From a virus, in IMG/VR virus record IMGVR_UViG_3300031851_000111, positions 1-30,852 of that record: a DNA stretch of 30,852 bases; one strand, given 5' to 3'. Under the pieces are notes generated by a model. The model ran no database searches. It saw only the letters and a program-made list of their open reading frames with translations, and was not told the DNA's origin. Each line of letters opens with the position of its first letter. The stretch's first letter is position 1. Below, piece after piece: positions 11,271-20,780 of this stretch. Both the position numbers and the translations under genes were made by a program.

Positions 11271-11310
11271 TGAGTATATGTGTTGACATCTGAGTATATA
11301 TCCGTATACT
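11271..11310 (+). promoter_or_regulatory. Early promoter 1 with repeats
   Basis: TTGACA (11283-11288), 16 bases, TATACT (11305-11310): a near-consensus sigma70 promoter. The 9-mer TGAGTATAT occurs at 11271 and 11291, two helical turns apart, flanking the -35. GTATA-N6-TATAC (11295-11310) is a dyad over the -10. These could be operator half-sites. The leader after it shares TTGTGGTTGT with promoter 2. Confidence 0.75.
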
Positions 11311-11344
11311 AATAGTTGTGGTTGTTATTTTAAAAGGAGGAATT

Positions 11345-11620
11345 ATGAGAGAAGCAACGCTTATTAAGAAAATCAACAAACTCTATCCAGGTGTAAAAGC
11401 TACACCATTGGCTGAGTTCTATGGTGATGAAACCAAAGAAGGTATTTGGTTCAGAGGTAGCGAAGGTGATGCCATCAACGGAGAACCAATGTACAACTAT
11501 TGGTATGCAGGTTGGGCAGAAACTTTTGGAGTTAACCCAGAGTTTGACAAACTTGTAGAGAAATGTGGCTGGCATTGTGAAGCATACGATGCTGGAACTT
11601 TAATGGCTTATCCAGGTTAA
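11345..11620 (+). CDS. First early protein, unknown
   Basis: 91 residues, starting at the ATG behind AAAGGAGG (6-base gap); a longer upstream reading in the same frame is less likely. It begins MREATLIKKINKLYPGVKAT and has an aromatic, acidic middle (EPMYNYWYAGWAETFGVNPE) with two cysteines. I do not recognise the family. As the first gene after a strong promoter, it is probably made early in large amounts and may act on the host. Confidence 0.8.
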   Translation: MREATLIKKINKLYPGVKATPLAEFYGDETKEGIWFRGSEGDAINGEPMYNYWYAGWAETFGVNPEFDKLVEKCGWHCEAYDAGTLMAYPG

Positions 11621-11629
11621 GGAGGAAAT

Positions 11630-11917
11630 ATGGATATTAATAAAATAAATTACTTTGCTGATATAAAGAAAGCGGATGGTAAGAGAGTTGCGTTGTATGA
11701 CGGAACTGATATTGGTTTACCAGGTACTGTTGCTGTGGTTGACTATGAAGGAGGTTACCATGAATTGATTGATTTTAATGCTGGTGATCATGCGAACTGG
11801 GATCAAACAAAAATTGATACCTGGAACACTGAGCAAGGTTTAAATAAAAACACGGTTGATATGATCATCAATCAAAGCATGTGGCCAAGTCACGAAACAA
11901 ACAAAAGAGAGGTTTAG
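11630..11917 (+). CDS. Early protein, unknown
   Basis: 95 residues, AAGGAGG 6 bases before the ATG, 9 bases after the previous stop. It is acidic, with a beta-rich middle (GKRVALYDGTDIGLPGTVAV, then DYEGGYHELIDF). The same kind of small domain occurs unannotated in marine phages. It ends REV, with the codons supplying a GAGG for the next gene. Function is unknown. Confidence 0.78.
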   Translation: MDINKINYFADIKKADGKRVALYDGTDIGLPGTVAVVDYEGGYHELIDFNAGDHANWDQTKIDTWNTEQGLNKNTVDMIINQSMWPSHETNKREV

Positions 11918-11922
11918 TGAAT

Positions 11923-12105
11923 ATGGAAATAAAACTAATGGTAAAAAATGTGTTTGGTAATGAACTGGTCTATCCAGTTTGTTGCCAGGCAAAAGCTTTG
12001 GCTAAACTGAAAGGTACCAAGACTTTCAATGATGTTGACTTAACCATCATCAAAGGTCTGGGTTATAAATTTAAATGGGTCGCTTTAACAAAGGAGGTAG
12101 CGTGA
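11923..12105 (+). CDS. Early protein, unknown, 60 residues
   Basis: The start is taken at ATG 11923 with GAGAGG 10 bases upstream. A GTG at 11917 that overlaps the previous stop is equally in frame and would add two residues. It begins MEIKLMVKNVFGNELVYPVC, followed by a helix and LTIIKGLGYKFKWV, a compact alpha/beta pattern. It ends KEVA, encoded by the recurring stop/start module. Function is unknown. Confidence 0.72.
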   Translation: MEIKLMVKNVFGNELVYPVCCQAKALAKLKGTKTFNDVDLTIIKGLGYKFKWVALTKEVA

Positions 12106-12314
12106 TGTTTGATGTAATTAGTTATGATGCAAATGGTAACGAGGACAAGGTAATGGCAAACAAACTTAAACAAGGGTTTGCAAAAGTGTATGACAATACA
12201 TGCAAGGAGTGTTTAGGAACTGGTAAAAGAGAAATTACTTTTGAAGATTGTTTTGGTAATCCAGTACCAGAGAAAACTGTTTATTTAAAATGCAAATGTA
12301 AGGAGGTGGCGTGA
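12105..12314 (+). CDS. Zinc-knuckle early protein, 69 residues
   Basis: The ATG at 12105 overlaps the previous stop (TGATG) behind AAAGGAGG. CKECLGTGK is an exact CxxCxGxG motif as in the DnaJ zinc domain, and a second pair, CKC, ends the protein, so one zinc-binding site is likely. The N-terminal half (MFDVISYDANGNEDKVMANK) is unassigned. It may be a protein- or RNA-binding adaptor (inference). It ends KEVA, encoded by the junction module. Confidence 0.75.
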   Translation: MFDVISYDANGNEDKVMANKLKQGFAKVYDNTCKECLGTGKREITFEDCFGNPVPEKTVYLKCKCKEVA

Positions 12315-12835
12315 TGATAATAAATATAATTTACAACAAGGACGCAGCGGATAATGCTGTTACGGTAGAGGATTATCCTTGGGGATACAAATTGAGAACC
12401 AAGAGAAAGTATTGGATTGAGACGACTAAAAGAGGTGACAGACTTTGTTACCAGACTTTAAATCCAAAGACTGACAAATGGTGCGCTGTGAAAAAAAGCA
12501 CTTATAGTGGTATTGAGGTTCTTTATGAGAACGAAGATGGACATATCAAAACTATTGGACTAGATCCTCAATGGGCCACCAAAGAAAGTCTTGCTCATTT
12601 CCAAAAAAATGTTGACGTTACTAAGCTGACCGATGGTCAAAGAGCTAAGATCTGTGAGACTAAGACAATTCTTCATTGTCAGAAATTTGTAAATGTTGAG
12701 ATTGTTAATACAACAATGATGGATCAAGAAGAAAAGGCAAAAAAAGATGCTGAGCAAGAGGAAATCAAAAATAAGTTAAACGATTATGCTAACCATATTT
12801 ATGGTAAATGCCTGGTTAAAAATGGTATTGCTTGA
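12314..12835 (+). CDS. Early protein, 173 residues, unknown
   Basis: ATG 12314 behind GGAGG, overlapping the previous stop. The N-terminal half is beta-rich (DYPWGYKLRTKRKYWIETTK, then GDRLCYQTLNPKTDKW). From about 85 on it is helical, with a charged coiled coil near 135-160 (DQEEKAKKDAEQEEIKNKLN). I do not recognise the family. It sits directly before the nucleotidase gene, whose start overlaps its stop. Confidence 0.78.
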   Translation: MIINIIYNKDAADNAVTVEDYPWGYKLRTKRKYWIETTKRGDRLCYQTLNPKTDKWCAVKKSTYSGIEVLYENEDGHIKTIGLDPQWATKESLAHFQKNVDVTKLTDGQRAKICETKTILHCQKFVNVEIVNTTMMDQEEKAKKDAEQEEIKNKLNDYANHIYGKCLVKNGIA

Positions 12836-13320
12836 TGAATAAATTAAAAATATTTGTAGACATGGACGGAGTTTTAGCAGACTTCGTCCAAGGCGTTGAA
12901 GGTCCAGAGTTTTTAAATGGACCTTTGACTCACGATGCTGAATACGATACCAGGAAGTTAGAATTATCTAATAATGGTTTGTTTCTTAAATTACCAAAGA
13001 TGGCAGACATGGATCACCTGGTAGATCATATCAAACAAAGCGGTGAGTATTGGGAGATCTTAACAGCTACAGGCGATGTCAACAGACAAAGAGTTGCAGC
13101 TGATAAATGTACCTGGATCAGAAAAAATGTTGATGCAAATGTCCTGGTAACTTGTACCATCAAAGGTAAACATAAAGCTGTCTTTGCTAATCATAACCAT
13201 GTATTGATTGATGATAGATTAGAAAATATAGAAGCCTGGACTAAGGCTGGAGGTATAGGTATTTTGCATAAAAATGCACAAGAAACCATAGAAAAATTAA
13301 TACCTCTTTTTTTCTCATAA
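12835..13320 (+). CDS. HAD-family 5'(3')-deoxyribonucleotidase
   Basis: 161 residues from ATG 12835. HAD motif I is FVDMDGVLADF (nucleophile D9, acid D11). Motif II is ILTATG. The Lys of motif III lies in KGKHKAVF, and motif IV is VLIDDRLENIEAWTKAGG. The length and DMDGVLADF fit the NT5C-like deoxyribonucleotidase group. It would remove phosphate from nucleoside monophosphates and so adjust nucleotide pools during infection. It is the last gene of the first early unit; a new promoter follows at once. Confidence 0.88.
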   Translation: MNKLKIFVDMDGVLADFVQGVEGPEFLNGPLTHDAEYDTRKLELSNNGLFLKLPKMADMDHLVDHIKQSGEYWEILTATGDVNRQRVAADKCTWIRKNVDANVLVTCTIKGKHKAVFANHNHVLIDDRLENIEAWTKAGGIGILHKNAQETIEKLIPLFFS

Positions 13321-13323
13321 GGG

Positions 13324-13352
13324 TTGATATAAGTAGTATAACGTACTATAAT
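13324..13352 (+). promoter_or_regulatory. Early promoter 2
   Basis: TTGATA (13324-13329), 17 bases, TATAAT (13347-13352): nearly perfect. TAGTA-N5-TACTA is a dyad overlapping the -10 (13333-13349 region). TTGTGGTTGT (13357-13366) begins 5 bases after the -10 and ends 19 bases before the ATG, as in promoter 1. Confidence 0.8.
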
Positions 13353-13385
13353 AGTTTTGTGGTTGTGATTAATAAAGGAGAAAAA

Positions 13386-13676
13386 ATGAGAAAACACAAA
13401 TGGGATGACGAGAGATATGTTGGCGGTATTGATACTGGTGACAGGATCTATTACAAGGGTGATATGGCTAATGTGGGTGGCTGGGGTAGCGTTACTAAAG
13501 TTGAGCCTTGTAACTACTATCACAAAACAATAACTATTAAGTTAGAAGATGGTAGGGTCCAAAAGATTAACCCTTACATGTTGGGCTGCCAGACTGAGGC
13601 TGACAAACCAATCTACAACCAAGGTGGTTTGGAAAGACATGTGATAGCTTACAAAAAAGAATGGGAGGTGGCGTAA
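13386..13676 (+). CDS. Early protein, 96 residues, unknown
   Basis: ATG 13386 behind AAAGGAG. It is beta-rich: GGIDTGDRIYYKGDMANVGG, then WGSVTKVE and YHKTITIKLEDGRVQKI, which suggests a small SH3-like barrel. It ends KEWEVA, encoded by the junction module. It is the first gene under promoter 2. No known family is recognised. Confidence 0.75.
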   Translation: MRKHKWDDERYVGGIDTGDRIYYKGDMANVGGWGSVTKVEPCNYYHKTITIKLEDGRVQKINPYMLGCQTEADKPIYNQGGLERHVIAYKKEWEVA

Positions 13677-13909
13677 TGAAATATGTAATTACAGAAAAAG
13701 GTAAAAAGTTGGGTGGTATATATGTTGGAGATATACCAAAGAACTGGTTTGCTTTTAGAAAAAATGATTGGATTACTTATCCAACAAAAAAACAAGCAGA
13801 AGCAGATCTTGCCTATGCTTACGATATTGCCAAGATGGATTTTCAAGGTCCAGAGAGGGTGGCTCTTACGAACAGGATATTAAATTTCAAAATAGAGGAG
13901 GTGGCATAG
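13676..13909 (+). CDS. Early protein, 77 residues, unknown
   Basis: The start overlaps the previous stop (TAATG) behind GGGAGG. It begins MKYVITEKGKKLGGIYVGDI, then WFAFRKNDWITYPTKKQAEA, and a helical end. The strand-then-AEADLA helix pattern is typical of small phage orphans. It ends IEEVA, encoded by the junction module. Confidence 0.72.
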   Translation: MKYVITEKGKKLGGIYVGDIPKNWFAFRKNDWITYPTKKQAEADLAYAYDIAKMDFQGPERVALTNRILNFKIEEVA

Positions 13910-14136
13910 TGGCTAAATATAAAGTTGGTGACAAAGTAAAACTAATACACGAAGAGTACAACGAGAAGGGAACTATCGTTGGGATCTTCGACCTTCATGC
14001 AGATACGTTTGAGAATGAGGGCCATGTCCAGGTCGCAGTAAGAGACAGATATTATTGTGACTTTGGCTACGATGTGAAATGGGAAGATGGTAACGGACCA
14101 AACCCCTGGGCAGAAAACGAATTGGAGGCAGCGTAA
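13909..14136 (+). CDS. SH3-like small protein, GTG start
   Basis: 75 residues; the GTG at 13909 overlaps the previous stop (TAGTG) and follows GAGGAGG. A longer reading from 13768 would lie inside the previous gene and is rejected. VAKYKVGDKVKLIHEEYNEK, then GTIVGIF, a VAVRDRYYCDF strand and WEDGNGPNPWAENELEA form the pattern of a KOW/SH3-like barrel. It ends ELEAA in the junction module. Partner unknown. Confidence 0.75.
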   Translation: MAKYKVGDKVKLIHEEYNEKGTIVGIFDLHADTFENEGHVQVAVRDRYYCDFGYDVKWEDGNGPNPWAENELEAA

Positions 14137-14315
14137 TGGCTTTAAAAACCAAATCACATAAAAGCATCCTTGGACAAATGCGTAAGAAGTATGGACTCAA
14201 AGACAATGTAGATCCAAAGAAAGCAGAGATAGCTATGACTCCAGATGACTGGAAGATCTTTAGCGAAGCTTTGACTTTCCCAAATGGTAAACCAAGTACC
14301 AGGGAGGATAAATAA
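14136..14315 (+). CDS. Small early protein, 59 residues
   Basis: The start overlaps the previous stop (TAATG), GGAGG 7 bases before. It begins MALKTKSHKSILGQMRKKYG and ends FPNGKPSTREDK. It is helical, basic at the front and acidic in the middle. The overlap at both ends supports it. Function is unknown. Confidence 0.68.
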   Translation: MALKTKSHKSILGQMRKKYGLKDNVDPKKAEIAMTPDDWKIFSEALTFPNGKPSTREDK

Positions 14316-14401
14316 TGGACATTCAACTATTACCAATACTTATATTTATGGCGTTCTGTCTTTATGCAGTCGCGCTAATCATCAAGGATAAAGAAAAATG
14401 A
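14315..14401 (+). CDS. Single-pass membrane micro-protein, 28 residues
   Basis: One hydrophobic helix spans almost all of it (LLPILIFMAFCLYAVALII), followed by KDKEK, so it is inserted with a positive tail in the cytoplasm. GGGAGG lies 7 bases upstream and the start overlaps the previous stop. It could act on the host membrane or be inert. Function is unknown. Confidence 0.6.
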   Translation: MDIQLLPILIFMAFCLYAVALIIKDKEK

Positions 14402-14643
14402 TCTTTTCAATAAACATAAACGGAAATATTATTGACTGGTGTTACAACTTAGATTGCCAGGACAAACAATATCATAAAACATGGATTCCTAAACTTGGTG
14501 ACATTCAAATAATAACCAAAGATCTTGGAGATCTTACGGTTAGCCAGGTTAGAAAAATAATTCTGGAAGATATCCAACCAGATATAAATATGGTTAGAGA
14601 TCATAACAATAAAGTGGCAAAAGAAAGGAGGCAAAGAATATGA
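14398..14643 (+). CDS. Early protein, 81 residues, unknown
   Basis: The start overlaps the previous stop (ATGA). It begins MIFSININGNIIDWCYNLDC, a beta-hairpin-like start, and ends in a basic helix (NNKVAKERRQRI). No clear Shine-Dalgarno beyond the AAAG of the gene before; coupling is likely. No family is recognised. Confidence 0.7.
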   Translation: MIFSININGNIIDWCYNLDCQDKQYHKTWIPKLGDIQIITKDLGDLTVSQVRKIILEDIQPDINMVRDHNNKVAKERRQRI

Positions 14644-14822
14644 ATTTCGATATAGCTTTTGGTAAATATTCAGCTTATTTTAGAGATAGGGGTTTTGGTA
14701 CTCAATTACCTTACATTTCCAGAACACACTCTAAAGCGACAGGAGAGGGCGGATATTTGCTTCGTGATGAAAATGATATGCACATAGCCTACATAACAAA
14801 AGATGGCAAGGTAGAGGCTTAG
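14640..14822 (+). CDS. Early protein, 60 residues, unknown
   Basis: AAAGGAGG precedes the ATG by 8 bases, and the start overlaps the previous stop (ATGA). MNFDIAFGKYSAYFRDRGFG, then GGYLLRDENDMHIAYITKDG: alternating strand and turn, suggesting a small beta-rich fold. Function is unknown. Confidence 0.7.
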   Translation: MNFDIAFGKYSAYFRDRGFGTQLPYISRTHSKATGEGGYLLRDENDMHIAYITKDGKVEA

Positions 14823-14823
14823 A

Positions 14824-14913
14824 ATGGACAGAAACAATATTCCGAAGCACCTTAGACATTTAACCAAAGAACAGCTAAAAGCATTGTTTCATTTATTTAG
14901 GAATCCAGTATGA
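14824..14913 (+). CDS. Micro-protein, 29 residues
   Basis: MDRNNIPKHLRHLTKEQLKA, then LFHLFRNPV: one basic amphipathic helix. It starts one base after the previous stop; the AGAGG in the upstream gene is its probable ribosome-binding site. Its stop overlaps the next start (ATGA). Coupling is the only support; function is unknown. Confidence 0.5.
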   Translation: MDRNNIPKHLRHLTKEQLKALFHLFRNPV

Positions 14914-15113
14914 GCAACTTACATAACCAAGAACAACTAGAAAACCAATTTGAAACTATACTTGACCAATTATTAAATCAAGATAGAAAAGGTTTAATTG
15001 ATGATGAAATAAATACTGTAGCTAGAAACTATGGTTTAAATGAAGATGATGACCGCGATGAAATTATAAACTTCTTAGCGGAATTTATACTTTACGATAT
15101 CAATACAGTATAG
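14910..15113 (+). CDS. Acidic helical protein, 67 residues
   Basis: MSNLHNQEQLENQFETILDQ and on to DDDRDEIINFLAEFILYDI. It is strongly acidic and helical, with no cysteine. Small acidic early proteins often mimic DNA or bind a host enzyme, but nothing here decides that. The start overlaps the previous stop (ATGA). Confidence 0.65.
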   Translation: MSNLHNQEQLENQFETILDQLLNQDRKGLIDDEINTVARNYGLNEDDDRDEIINFLAEFILYDINTV

Positions 15114-15122
15114 GAGTAAAAA

Positions 15123-15341
15123 ATGTCAGGTAAAGGATCAGGCAGGCGCATAGAAGATATAAACAAGATACGAAATAATTGGGATAGTATTTTTAAGAAG
15201 CGCGACAAGAAACAAATAACCCAAGTAACAATTGAATTTGAAATGCCAGGTAACCCAAGCATAAACGACATAAACAACCAGGTTGAAAAAATGTTAAAAG
15301 AGAATAAAATTGTTTATAAAACCATAACCAAATATATTTAA
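15123..15341 (+). CDS. Early protein, 72 residues, unknown
   Basis: TAGGAG 6 bases before the ATG. It begins MSGKGSGRRIEDINKIRNNW, basic, with a strand (ITQVTIEFEMPG) and a final helix-strand (VEKMLKENKIVYKTITKYI). The Gly/Lys/Arg front is flexible and may bind nucleic acid. Function is unknown. Its stop overlaps the next start. Confidence 0.68.
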   Translation: MSGKGSGRRIEDINKIRNNWDSIFKKRDKKQITQVTIEFEMPGNPSINDINNQVEKMLKENKIVYKTITKYI

Positions 15342-15445
15342 TGCTTGAACTGATTATTAAAATAATACTATCGCTATCTGGAGTATTCGCACTCATGCTA
15401 CTACTAACCTCATTAGCAATAGTAATAATCGACCGCAAGCAATAA
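15341..15445 (+). CDS. Single-pass membrane micro-protein, 34 residues
   Basis: MLELIIKIILSLSGVFALML, continuing hydrophobic to AIVII, then DRKQ. Almost the whole protein is a membrane helix. The start overlaps the previous stop (TAATG). It is the last gene of the plus-strand early block. Together with the 28-residue protein at 14315 it makes two tiny membrane proteins in the same unit. Confidence 0.55.
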   Translation: MLELIIKIILSLSGVFALMLLLTSLAIVIIDRKQ

Positions 15446-18072: not shown

Positions 18073-18436
18073 GTTTTGCCCTTTCATCGTCTTGTTGAGC
18101 TATTGCATTAGCCCAGTTTAAATATTGTCTTACTATAGAAGTAAAAACTTTTTTTCTCTTATCCCTATCCCACTTGTGTAATGCTTGATTACCTTCTTCT
18201 CTGGATAGTTCTAAATATATATCCTTGGTTTGTGCTATGGAGTATTCAACACCTTCGTCATTGAGTTGTGCTTTGTTTGGTAACCTTTTACCCTCTTTAA
18301 TCTTTTTTAAATGATCCATACTGCACGCACCTAACCAATAATCTCCGTCTTTATAAAGTAGTGGCCCACTCGGATTTTTACAATATCCGCAAAGAGTGGG
18401 CCTGTTTTTACCATTAAAATTAAAATGGTGCTTCAT
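18038..18436 (-). CDS. Zinc-binding small protein between SSB and primase
   Basis: 132 residues from ATG 18436, just behind GAGG; a longer start at 18466 would lie in the SSB gene. CGYCKNPSGPLLYKDGDYWL, then GACSMDHL, gives a likely zinc site (two cysteines, then Cys and His). The rest is helical, with EGNQALHKWDRDKRKKVFTS. It overlaps both neighbours. It may load or hold the primase-helicase; this is suggested only by position. Confidence 0.68.
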   Translation of the reverse strand: MKHHFNFNGKNRPTLCGYCKNPSGPLLYKDGDYWLGACSMDHLKKIKEGKRLPNKAQLNDEGVEYSIAQTKDIYLELSREEGNQALHKWDRDKRKKVFTSIVRQYLNWANAIAQQDDERAKHGSDEILSRRK

Positions 18437-18926
18437 CCTCGCTCGCCACTGTAGTACCCATTGCATCTAAGTCTGCTTCACTAGGACCAGTTTTAATATT
18501 GTCATCTTCAACTTTTGGTTTTGGCTTTGCAGCTGATTCAGTTGCAGGTTGCCAGTTCTTACCAAAGTTTTCATCAATGACCATATATTTGTCATCATTA
18601 TCCATTATTACTGGAGCTACGACTGACTTGTCCATGAACTTATCCATAGATGTTAATGAGCCTAAACCCATTGCAGTTGCCATAGCTTTAAATGAATGTT
18701 TGCCACGTCTTACAACATCTGGATTATCATGTCCTACTGTAAACGCATGATTAATTCTGAATGTTGAACTACCAACGGTAAAGAATACTTTAATTGCTTC
18801 CCAGTTATTTCTACCAGTAACAACTTCATATCCATCAAAGTTTAAAGTATGAACACCAGGTTCAATCTTTGCTTGTGATTCTGAACCAGAATCTGTGTTA
18901 TCAAAATCATATTTTGTTAAATCCAT
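18420..18926 (-). CDS. Single-stranded DNA-binding protein (DUF669-like)
   Basis: 168 residues. Residues 20-120 follow the DUF669/phage SSB pattern: GVHTLNFDGYEVVTGRNNWE, a FRINHAFTVGHDNPDVVRRG segment and AMATAMGLG. The tail is acidic and ends SEDEAPF, like the DDIPF tip through which SSBs recruit partners. AAGGAG lies 9 bases before the ATG. It begins MDLTKY, the same six residues as the primase-helicase. Confidence 0.8.
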   Translation of the reverse strand: MDLTKYDFDNTDSGSESQAKIEPGVHTLNFDGYEVVTGRNNWEAIKVFFTVGSSTFRINHAFTVGHDNPDVVRRGKHSFKAMATAMGLGSLTSMDKFMDKSVVAPVIMDNDDKYMVIDENFGKNWQPATESAAKPKPKVEDDNIKTGPSEADLDAMGTTVASEDEAPF

Positions 18927-18939
18927 TTTTTACTCCTTG

Positions 18940-19068
18940 TTAAATCCAACATTTATATTCTGAACAATCATTTTGTGATTCGCCACAATGACGACAAAAT
19001 CCATCTTCATCGTATTGTGGTTGATCATCATCACAAAAGTGTTCGTTAAGTTCTTTAGTATCAATCAC
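18940..19068 (-). CDS. Small acidic zinc-ribbon-like protein, 42 residues, GTG start
   Basis: The GTG at 19068 overlaps the TGA of the gene upstream (GTGA), behind GAGG. The N-terminal half is acidic (DTKELNEHFCDDDQPQYDED); then GFCRHCGESQNDCSEYKCWI provides CxxC and CxxxxC pairs for zinc. A strong ribosome-binding site for SSB follows at its end. Such mini zinc ribbons are frequent in phage replication operons; role unknown. Confidence 0.62.
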   Translation of the reverse strand: MIDTKELNEHFCDDDQPQYDEDGFCRHCGESQNDCSEYKCWI

Positions 19069-19787
19069 TTCAACATCTCCTCACGGATTGCGTTCCAGTC
19101 CATTGGCAACTCATCTGGTAAGTTGTATCTGTTTTTTGCAAGATACGCTGGGTCGTTGTTTGGATAAATAATTCTATCTCCAGATACAGTTTTAGTAGTC
19201 ATACCACTTTTACCCTGCACCTTAATAGTACCTAACTTCTTAGCTGCAAAAAAACATGCATCAGAGTGTTCCAACAATAATGCTGAAGCTTTCTTATGAA
19301 GTTTAAGAGAGTATCTGTCGTAAGCTTCGATTCGTGGATCTTCCACTTTTCTTACCTCACTATGACATATCTGGAATATCATCATTCCTTTATCTCTTAG
19401 TTTGTTAAGTTTTTCTATGTACTGACCCCAGTACCTCAATGTTTCGGCATAGCCTTTTCCATAGGAAGGTTGATCGATCGAAGCCCAGTTGTTATCTGCA
19501 CAAACCTTTTCCCACAACAATCTCTCAAACCAGTCCAAAGAATCAATACAAACAGTTTTGTATTCATGTTTTTCAACGGCAAGCTCATCAAGATTTTCCA
19601 TGACATCCGCATAAGATTTACACGGTATGTTATCCATTTGTATCTTACCTAGACCATCCTCGACATCCAACATAATTGGATTTTTTGTCTGCGATGCTAA
19701 GTATGTTTTACCTACAGCTGCCTCACCATGAACTATTATCCTTGGTGGTTTTTGTACGGATTTTTTTCTTATATCAGCTAATGACAT
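19065..19787 (-). CDS. RecA-like recombination ATPase (AAA_24, Sak4-like)
   Basis: 240 residues. Walker A is GEAAVGKT (21-28), Walker B is VCIDSLDW (D82), and IFQICHSEV supplies the following polar residues. This is the AAA_24 family of phage nucleotide-binding proteins that includes the Sak4 single-strand annealing/recombinase group. It should act with SSB and the nuclease encoded upstream in repair or recombination. It has no separate DNA-binding domain. Sak4 function is inferred from family and neighbourhood. Confidence 0.8.
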   Translation of the reverse strand: MSLADIRKKSVQKPPRIIVHGEAAVGKTYLASQTKNPIMLDVEDGLGKIQMDNIPCKSYADVMENLDELAVEKHEYKTVCIDSLDWFERLLWEKVCADNNWASIDQPSYGKGYAETLRYWGQYIEKLNKLRDKGMMIFQICHSEVRKVEDPRIEAYDRYSLKLHKKASALLLEHSDACFFAAKKLGTIKVQGKSGMTTKTVSGDRIIYPNNDPAYLAKNRYNLPDELPMDWNAIREEMLK

Positions 19788-20050
19788 TATTGCACCTCAA
19801 TCTTTTTTTCTTCTGTTGGCTCTAATATGTTTTTCATACGAGCCTCATAAGAACCAAGTAAGGTATTTAAATCATCAATATCATTATTAGCTTTTATAAT
19901 AAAATCATCTCTGATTTGTTTCTTTTCTTGCCAACGAGCCATCAACTCTTTTGCATTGTCTGGCATTTCATTAACCTTATGTTCCTTGCCATCATCCGCA
20001 AACTTAATTGTTGGTTCCTCAACGTTTTTGGTTTCACTATTTTCACTCAT
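19787..20050 (-). CDS. Helical protein, possible recombination accessory
   Basis: 87 residues from ATG 20050 with AAGGAG 8 bases upstream; a longer reading to 20239 overlaps the nuclease gene and is rejected. It is a charged coiled coil: DNAKELMARWQEKKQIRDDF, then NNDIDDLNTLLGSYEARMKN. It overlaps the nuclease end by 8 bases and abuts the ATPase start by one base. It probably bridges proteins of the operon; not recognised otherwise. Confidence 0.7.
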   Translation of the reverse strand: MSENSETKNVEEPTIKFADDGKEHKVNEMPDNAKELMARWQEKKQIRDDFIIKANNDIDDLNTLLGSYEARMKNILEPTEEKKIEVQ

Positions 20051-20780
20051 TAGTTTCTCCTTTGTTATATTGTTTATATAAATCGCAGATGCTTCTTGCG
20101 TTACAAAAGCGACAATGATCCCCATAAACGTATACAGGGTTTTCCTCCAAGCATGCATCCACGCACGGCTGTAAGAAATCGTAGGCCCAATCCACCAGAA
20201 ACTCTGCGGTGGTGTTCCATGTCTTGATAGGTCCGCCACCCCATGTTGCGCGTGGCTGGACTATTGTAATCTCTACTTCAGTATCTTCATTGCCATAACG
20301 AGATAATGCACCAACTGCATATATCATGGCTTGTTTGTTGTGTTCTGGACTGACAGGATATTTACCTGTTTTTAAATCTATAACGCACATTTTATGTGGA
20401 GTGATTATTAGTGCGTCTGCATAACCATATAGATCTTCTGATATTTCTTGGCATCTAACTTTTTGTTCTACTAATAATTTGCCGTTTAATCTTTTTGCTC
20501 TCTCTTGCACATATTCCACATAAATCTTTGCGCAATCAATCATGTCTTGGTCGACTGTTATTTCAAAATCTTCTACATATTCTTTTTTACCAAGCCAATA
20601 ATCTTCAAGTGTGACATCAACTAAAAATCCTTTTAATAGTTGTTCTGTCATGTTGTGAATTAAAGTACCAACAGCGGCAGGCAAGCCAACTTGATAATCA
20701 ACTTTTGCTGCAAGGGTAGGCATACCTGGACAATTAGTCCATTTTTCAGCAGCTGATGGGCTAAGTTTGGCGTGTTTCAT
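20043..20780 (-). CDS. PD-(D/E)XK exonuclease, Cas4/RecB-like (DUF2800)
   Basis: 245 residues. SPSAAEKWTNCPG at the start and GYADALII (D122) plus VIDLKTGK (D135-x-K137) form the PD-(D/E)XK site. Cysteines C17, C223, C226 and C232 (CRFCNARSIC) have the spacing of the iron-sulphur cluster of AddB/Cas4-type nucleases. This is the DUF2800 family, proposed to resect DNA ends for recombination. The start overlaps the HTH gene by 20 bases. Confidence 0.85.
   Translation of the reverse strand: MKHAKLSPSAAEKWTNCPGMPTLAAKVDYQVGLPAAVGTLIHNMTEQLLKGFLVDVTLEDYWLGKKEYVEDFEITVDQDMIDCAKIYVEYVQERAKRLNGKLLVEQKVRCQEISEDLYGYADALIITPHKMCVIDLKTGKYPVSPEHNKQAMIYAVGALSRYGNEDTEVEITIVQPRATWGGGPIKTWNTTAEFLVDWAYDFLQPCVDACLEENPVYVYGDHCRFCNARSICDLYKQYNKGETNE

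Follow-up and report, generated by a model that had tools for sequence, protein, structure and literature searches.

Whether the mosaicism of phage genomes is guided by short homologies at gene borders, or arises from random recombination followed by selection, is an old question. Arbiol et al. 2010 reportedly described the PeSL, mobile regulatory cassettes of T4-type phages, as repeated short elements between small genes that are thought to promote shuffling. PeSL are intergenic elements with an early promoter and a stem-loop. In integrons, which have structured attC sites and an integrase, single genes are gained and lost between repeated borders. Two papers trace a model of mosaicism based on short conserved boundary sequences back to Susskind and Botstein 1978 and to Clark et al. 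2001 (phage HK620); according to the same papers, there is evidence for boundary sequences in some phages, and many or most borders are without them (PMC3233612, PMC3029335). A third paper describes SAS in cluster K mycobacteriophages, a 13-mer with the consensus GGGATAGGAGCCC upstream of the start, which has a proposed translational role and is also found with inverted repeats (ESAS) (PMC3203893). Here we describe a 15-base module that is repeated at the gene junctions of a small-gene array in IMG/VR record IMGVR_UViG_3300031851_000111, a marine virus of bacteria; the whole stretch of 30,852 bases that was analysed is called the window. Comparison with relatives gives good support to the reading of this module as a border between gene cassettes.

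Results

The module at five gene junctions

The degenerate pattern GGAGGYRGCRTRRTG has five zero-mismatch matches in the window, all on the plus strand, and these are the five junctions singled out by the first-pass annotation, an earlier reading of this DNA. Chance was rejected as their origin, because 100 dinucleotide-preserving shuffles gave no match. All five sites are read in the frame (G)GAG-GYR-GCR-TRR, which gives the upstream protein the ending E-V-A at four of them and E-A-A at the fifth; the stop codon and the next start have one base in common (TGATG, TAATG or TAGTG), with 7 bases between GGAGG and that start. As the first-pass annotation had described, the reading frames show a Shine-Dalgarno sequence, EVA/EAA codons, stop and overlapping start fused at each junction. 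The genes that meet there are small and unlike each other, and the module accounts for unlike phage proteins with the same terminal residues. All five copies differ pairwise, the variable positions being 6, 7, 10, 12 and 13. The sites, and a sixth junction of the same geometry, are the following:

12093 to 12107, plus strand: module 1, GGAGGTAGCGTGATG; upstream protein ends KEVA
12302 to 12316, plus strand: module 2, GGAGGTGGCGTGATG; upstream protein ends KEVA
13664 to 13678, plus strand: module 3, GGAGGTGGCGTAATG; upstream protein ends WEVA
13897 to 13911, plus strand: module 4, GGAGGTGGCATAGTG, with a GTG start; upstream protein ends EEVA
14124 to 14138, plus strand: module 5, GGAGGCAGCGTAATG; upstream protein ends LEAA
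14303 to 14317, plus strand: sixth junction, GGAGGATAAATAATG, with ATAAA in place of YRGCR

The module is present at five of the six plus-strand window junctions of this geometry. The small-gene array (11345-15445) runs rightward and is flanked by minus-strand genes. It had been taken for a single early gene array; a small-gene array it is, and the sites fall in two operon-like runs rather than one, 11345-13320 and 13386 onward, each with its own promoter-like sequence. The starts at 11345, 11630, 13386 and 14640, which include the first gene of each run, have a clear Shine-Dalgarno sequence without the module. This means that translation in the window phage can do without it.

The same starts bear on another explanation, namely that the module is a translational control site at which a phage or host factor, or an RNA, recognises early-gene starts, as SAS may do in cluster K. 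SAS is a precedent (PMC3203893), and the module is indeed located at starts and, within the window, confined to the small-gene array. However, the first genes of both runs are without it, and together with the joint sequences described below this makes a control site quite improbable.

Cassette turnover in relatives of the window

Relatives were collected from IMG/VR by module pairs at a set gap, which are uncommon but keep recurring, with 33 stretches at a gap of 190-220, 32 at 221-251 and 56 at 140-170; a cellular genome collection gave 2 stretches with a strict module pair at 190-220, against the 33 in IMG/VR. After duplicate removal, 108 loci (window included, L numbers below) had at least two strict modules on one strand, some of them from near-identical phages. 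The genes at the joints were sorted into families (G numbers). Before grouping, L101, L102 and L115 (same contigs as L013, L001 and L023), L117-L121 (identical to the window) and proteins shorter than 25 amino acids were dropped, and L305 and L306 were also removed before the final gene-family grouping. The window genes that enter the comparison are:

11923 to 12105, plus strand: left anchor gene of the first-run modules, family G21, also in L100, L023, L013, L090 and L184
12105 to 12314, plus strand: cassette gene G0; in L013 and L090 no gene stands between G21 and G16
12314 to 12835, plus strand: gene G33, after module 2
13386 to 13676, plus strand: left anchor gene of the second run, family G5; different cassettes come next in relatives
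13676 to 13909, plus strand: cassette gene G20, replaced by G11 in L090 with both border modules unchanged
13909 to 14136, plus strand: cassette gene G17, which L023 and L184 do not have between G5 and G10
14136 to 14315, plus strand: right anchor gene G10

Cassettes turn over at the module. From G5 to G10, the window carries G20-G17, and its close relatives carry G3-G22 (L023), G3-G22-G17-G68 (L013), G11-G17 (L090) or G94 (L184). In a sister group, the stretch from G5 to G28 or G93 holds G20 (L001), G7 (L270 and L271), G11 (L274), G24-G7 (L284) or G22-G24-G7 (L179). Altogether, 48 run comparisons have the same outer genes and a different interior; 36 are distinct by gene content, and these overlap and are not 36 independent events. 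Among L179, L284 and L270, the G5 end is identical over 150 nt and 0.97 to 1.00 identical over 300 nt, the next common cassettes (G24, G7) have an identity of 1.00 over the compared stretches, and the contigs differ in whether they carry cassettes G22 and G24, each cut exactly between identical copies of GGAGGTAGCGTAATG. The window and L090 differ by a single-gene swap (G5, G20, G17 versus G5, G11, G17), with flanks at 0.97 and 0.95 identity and both modules unchanged. More swaps separate L001 from L270 and, in other groups, L251 from L252, L114 from L278 and L249 from L289. Like events in L114/L278, L249/L285/L289 and L251/L252 concern contigs that have no protein, or at most one, in common with the window in the parts compared; the module thus recurs in unlike phages.

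The loci had been picked for two strict modules, and in this set at least two different partners were found in 31 of the 41 clusters with at least two junctions when counted by upstream end, and in 30 of 43 by downstream start. Both joints were strict in 114 of 144 pairs sharing the upstream side only and in 50 of 66 sharing the downstream side only. Identity profiles were drawn over 58 strict modules from 20 chosen contigs, with a cruder gene grouping in which upstream frames were read from stop to stop. When only the upstream gene was common, identity fell from 0.71-0.80 ahead of the module to 0.27-0.41 behind it; when only the downstream gene was common, it rose from 0.27-0.44 to 0.81-0.91. 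The contrast is lowered in these profiles, because the cruder grouping counted some unlike upstream genes as common. The check proposed by the first-pass annotation, that gene content in relatives should alter at the module borders while the module itself is retained, therefore came out in its favour.

Contig L285 led us to two named phages, the Roseobacter phages CRP-901 and CRP-902, whose records give the same host. CRP-902 has the order gp06, module, gp05, module, gp04; in CRP-901, gp04 and gp03, the homologues of CRP-902 gp06 and gp04, are joined through one module. The insert that CRP-901 does not have spans precisely 161 bp from one module to the next; over 90 nt, its flanks are 0.97 identical upstream and 0.82 downstream, and the CRP-901 joint equals the right-hand joint of CRP-902. 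Because two named phages differ by one module-bounded cassette, an artefact of metagenome assembly is argued against. A nucleotide search of named phages for the window array itself gave no match.

Relatives without the module

Terminase relatives were taken as the best 80 of a longer list, and the 41 that had 2.5 kb or more of DNA upstream were checked. The strict module is present in three (L013, L023 and L078). No homologue of the array genes at 11345-13909 was found in the 38 others, where the genes of the 14136-15341 part are often present. Since the module and these array genes are missing together, the module belongs to a gene pool and not to the whole phage family. The first-pass annotation had named two outcomes that would speak against it, and the first, the same genes in fixed order with no module, was not seen in the 41 relatives.

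In six contigs inspected, the G10 homologue starts after other sequences in the array-less L052, L061 and L047, L022 has another repeated joint, with two occurrences of GGGGGAA immediately ahead of ATGATG, and a variant joint, AGAGGTGGCGTA, occurs once in L047. GGGGGAA before ATGATG also stands twice in L040 and once in L021, both relatives without the module. Because the same gene, G10, has different joints in different relatives, the module is dispensable for the gene that follows it, and this again argues against a translational control site. Judged by these sequences, the module travels with the cassette pool, and the gene after it can do without it.

Joint sequences in a sample blind to the five free bases

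A base-rate scan of IMG/VR collected any two GGAGG-N5-TRATG joints 190-220 bases apart, the pentamer N5 being unconstrained; the sample comprises at least 120 stretches, those found first and not a random draw. Among 83 pairs from 80 of these loci, 24 had identical N5, compared with 1.0% between contigs and 2.4% with partners matched for guanine-plus-cytosine content (GC). The set comprised 118 loci with 121 pairs; 29 pairs whose middle frame did not run from joint to joint were dropped, leaving 92, and dereplication, that is, removal of any two pairs sharing a homologous gene, left 73. Of these, 23 had identical N5, where 5000 shuffles gave a mean of 0.82 and a maximum of 5; when shuffling was confined to GC blocks of eight, in which pairs were often matched with themselves again, the mean was 4.03 and the maximum 12. 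Without dereplication, identical N5 was found at 27 of 88 loci, versus 2.03 with GC-matched partners. This count, like the counts below by distance, at non-overlapping starts and of tail residues, is not dereplicated.

The likeness is local, and different arrays carry different joint versions. The pentamer was shared in 57 of 153 comparisons at less than 600 bp, 18 of 59 at 600-2000 bp and 1 of 45 beyond 2000 bp, which gives an identity of 0.354 within 2 kb (75/212), against 0.009 between contigs. Among 27 other starts in contigs whose overlaps share a pentamer, a single one carried it. Sharing was not evident at four-base ATGA overlaps, with 2/9, 0/23 and 0/8 among the N5-blind loci and 0/12 and 0/28 among the terminase loci. 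The window's YRGCR is one version of many, because only 20 of 256 overlap junctions in the N5-blind sample carry it. This figure, with a second of 3 of 137 starts carrying YRGCR, covers part of the second outcome that the first-pass annotation had named as adverse, an equal frequency of the module at random junctions. The ATGAG version, which is without YRGCR, was found in only two contigs, both already in the sample, and the TGAAG version in seven contigs with a GC of 0.47-0.64; gene T0 lies in the TGAAG contigs L173 and L314 and in L166, each time with a different gene downstream.

Several explanations can be weighed with these numbers. A ribosome-binding site alone was considered and is disfavoured, as other starts and distant overlaps in the same contigs are mostly without those free bases. 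The suggestion of the first-pass annotation that the module might be a tuned coupling signal is disfavoured as a sufficient account, the pentamer being rare at other starts, local and different between arrays; the same rarity and the change of joint sequence from array to array count against the control site.

It is also conceivable that one gene was duplicated in tandem and then diverged, the joint being a remnant of the common origin. A few neighbours do look paralogous (L263, L266, L273 and L313), but no dereplicated N5-blind pair has homologous proteins inside it (blastp, E 1e-3). In the 23 identical-N5 pairs, agreement is 0.65 and 0.52 at the two bases that adjoin the module and mostly 0.2 to 0.4 at other nearby bases, so that beyond two bases the matches are about what chance gives, and we consider this origin very improbable. 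Still less credible is a functional tag, for example a degradation signal, formed by the common C-terminal residues. Ends in -VA or -AA resemble ClpXP signals, but shared-joint pairs encode many tails (EVK, EGE, EGK, EDE, EES, EEN, EAK and others), and the nucleotides of same-tail pairs agree beyond their amino acids in 27 of 35 cases, versus 10.9 of 33 expected, which is more than the residues require.

The most serious alternative is that illegitimate recombination occurs everywhere and is filtered by selection, GGAGG with a one-base overlap being the best coupling geometry and the free bases following from preferences of codon usage and of the ribosome. The 7-base distance of GGAGG and the TRRTG overlap fit initiation and coupling, and GGAGGTG lengthens the complementarity to the 16S rRNA end. 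In addition, 50 of the 73 dereplicated pairs have no exact N5 match, one apparent deletion lies away from the module, and the test for crossovers within the module, given below, is flat. However, such preferences should act genome-wide and across phages of like composition, and the sharing falls to 1 of 45 beyond 2 kb and to 0.009 between contigs; GC-matched partners give 2.03 where 27 were observed; and synonymous bases agree too. We therefore hold this explanation to be unlikely, though the least so of the alternatives.

The phage and the surroundings of the array

To judge from its terminase and portal, the window virus is a tailed phage, and it is probably podovirus-like. The nearest terminases in named phage records are those of the Manatee Spring records and phage DSL-LC05, at 48 to 50.5% identity; the epsilon15 terminase is 36% identical to that of the window. 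The portal belongs to phrog_1216. The features ahead of the two runs, and one gene of the first, are:

11283 to 11310, plus strand: promoter-like sequence ahead of the first run, a consensus match only
13324 to 13352, plus strand: promoter-like sequence ahead of the second run, a consensus match only
11630 to 11917, plus strand: G24 homologue, 77% identical to the L179 copy; here outside the modules, with a shortened border, ending REV

The two promoter-like sites are leads only, because the window scan found 10 such sites in total, versus 16.8 in shuffles, and as a whole is not above chance. Each run opens with a sigma-70-like match (11/12) followed by a similar leader containing TTGTGGTTGT (11283-11340 and 13324-13385), and the two leaders resemble copies of one another. 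Copies of G24 lie inside the module array in L179 and L284; at 11905-11923 in the window, the border of its homologue is shortened to GAGAGGTTTAGTG (REV), as if a module had eroded after relocation. Between the two cassette runs lies a 5'-3' deoxyribonucleotidase-like gene (12832-13320, phrog_2643), whose relative in L093 (55% identity) comes directly after a module. G37 (L112 and L253) and the window's G0 (12105-12314) have a common C-terminal half (the GTGKKKITFED region and tail) and unlike N-terminal halves, a half-likeness that points to exchange inside genes too.

Discussion

Proposed mechanism

We consider it rather probable that the 15-mer is a cassette border or adaptor that keeps both genes intact when two copies join. 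Three roles coincide in it: it closes the upstream gene with tail codons and stop, supplies the Shine-Dalgarno sequence, and opens the next gene. With all of these in one stretch, any two copies joined would give two intact genes. Joining would leave the genes in frame, with a three-residue tail as a scar and a working ribosome-binding site, and cassettes could thus be gained, lost and exchanged harmlessly. We propose two routes in the following: First, strand annealing between phages could insert or exchange a cassette. Second, slippage between neighbouring direct repeats could drop one, as the 15-bp repeats lie about 150-280 bases apart. Because each event would copy the border, one array would tend to one border sequence. 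The shared 15 bp may help to place the recombination, probably via the phage's own Sak4-type annealing system, for which the window offers the following candidates:

19065 to 19787, minus strand: Sak4-like single-stranded DNA annealing protein, candidate recombinase (phrog_124, E value 5e-41; AAA_24)
18420 to 18926, minus strand: gene adjoining the Sak4-like gene, with the acidic tail EDEAPF like that of a single-stranded DNA-binding protein (SSB); candidate cognate SSB
20043 to 20780, minus strand: exonuclease, DUF2800/PD-(D/E)XK by family scans, candidate recombination partner

The product of 18420-18926 matched no named family in the family scans. Sak4 of phage HK620 anneals single strands and is aided by its own SSB (PMC5928155). 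The pair CRP-901 and CRP-902 is compatible with a crossover inside the module.

Several results weigh against this account. Crossovers within the module were not detected, and the variable bases on its 5' and 3' sides showed no tendency to follow different neighbours: the interaction was 0.017 (95% interval -0.115 to 0.151) over 30 clusters anchored upstream and 28 anchored downstream. An apparent 5'/3' tracking in pair counts was discarded, as it vanished when counted by cluster. RecA or Red-type systems usually need homology longer than 15 bp. Within the window no two of the five copies are identical, and 38 of the 41 terminase relatives have no strict module. Non-overlapping starts also repeat locally above background, to a lesser degree (4/36 with the same spacing within 2 kb; 21/121 for GGAG with a spacer of 7). 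The comparisons took in GGAGG-N5-TRRTG joints only, and therefore show exchange there and not its frequency elsewhere, and the persistence of the fixed bases is partly a matter of this choice. In several comparisons, such as L013/L023 and L098/L299, the insert-free joint matches neither border. Finally, an in-frame fusion of G3 to G2 in L001, L179 and L271 points to a deletion away from the module; in this fusion (L001 2264, plus strand; L179 4681, minus strand in reversed coordinates; L271 2296, plus strand), the first ten G3 residues are joined to G2.

Taken with these results, the idea of the first-pass annotation that cassettes are swapped by homologous recombination stands in its first part, the cassette border, which relatives and two named phages bear out; that homologous recombination does the swapping we only infer, the crossover test having been negative. 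The local sharing of the joint sequence and the different joints before one and the same gene, in turn, are direct observations. A wider extension is tentative: possibly, many phages carry array-specific overlap joints that target exchange and ensure functional products, phages with the same joint forming an exchange group.

Comparison with known systems

The first-pass annotation knew of no named system with this feature. This was too strong, as SAS and the boundary-sequence model are close precedents (PMC3203893, PMC3233612, PMC3029335). Of the repeated start sequences described so far, SAS comes nearest: both are short directional repeats with a Shine-Dalgarno core at the starts of many non-structural genes of varied families (PMC3203893). 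However, our module takes in stop and start, is found where genes overlap by one base, and changes from array to array. Its five sites read GGAGGYRGCRTRRTG and do not fit the SAS consensus, and where SAS is described as standing at starts regardless of overlap, the starts at 11345, 11630, 13386 and 14640 are without the module, as are 26 of the 27 other starts for the shared pentamer.

The window modules differ from PeSL in being almost wholly coding or ribosome-binding, and the window scan placed no promoter-like or terminator-like site at any of the five. They differ from integron borders in that the 15-mer is directional, with no inverted repeat by eye; no integrase turned up in the family scans, which covered part of the window proteins.

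The boundary-sequence model likewise proposes that short gene-border sequences target recombination and yield mosaic genomes. Here too, the border lies between genes whose neighbours differ across genomes, and its sequence stays nearly constant while the flanks change, with variation at the five positions given above and among joints preselected as GGAGG-N5-TRRTG. The lambda and HK620 nin region was considered as the same system and set aside, since the inspected starts share no single repeated 15-mer. In the open-licence literature that we searched by words, repeated joints of stop, Shine-Dalgarno sequence and start were nowhere described as cassette borders. Compared with the boundary model, the present case differs in two respects: one sequence type recurs at several borders of one array, and the module doubles as tail codons, stop, ribosome-binding site and start.

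The module is a recurrent case defined by sequence: the borders are repeated, specific to their array, and the very edges at which genes are gained, lost or swapped. The question of guidance thereby becomes testable on five bases that are required for neither initiation nor overlap. In its behaviour the joint resembles a standard connector between interchangeable genes, and such joints offer a route to the interchangeable accessory genes of phages; if the wider extension given above is true, they would be nature's equivalent of the standard prefix and suffix used in synthetic biology. The idea of boundary sequences is old, and the repeated stop/Shine-Dalgarno/start joint as a cassette border is its new form.

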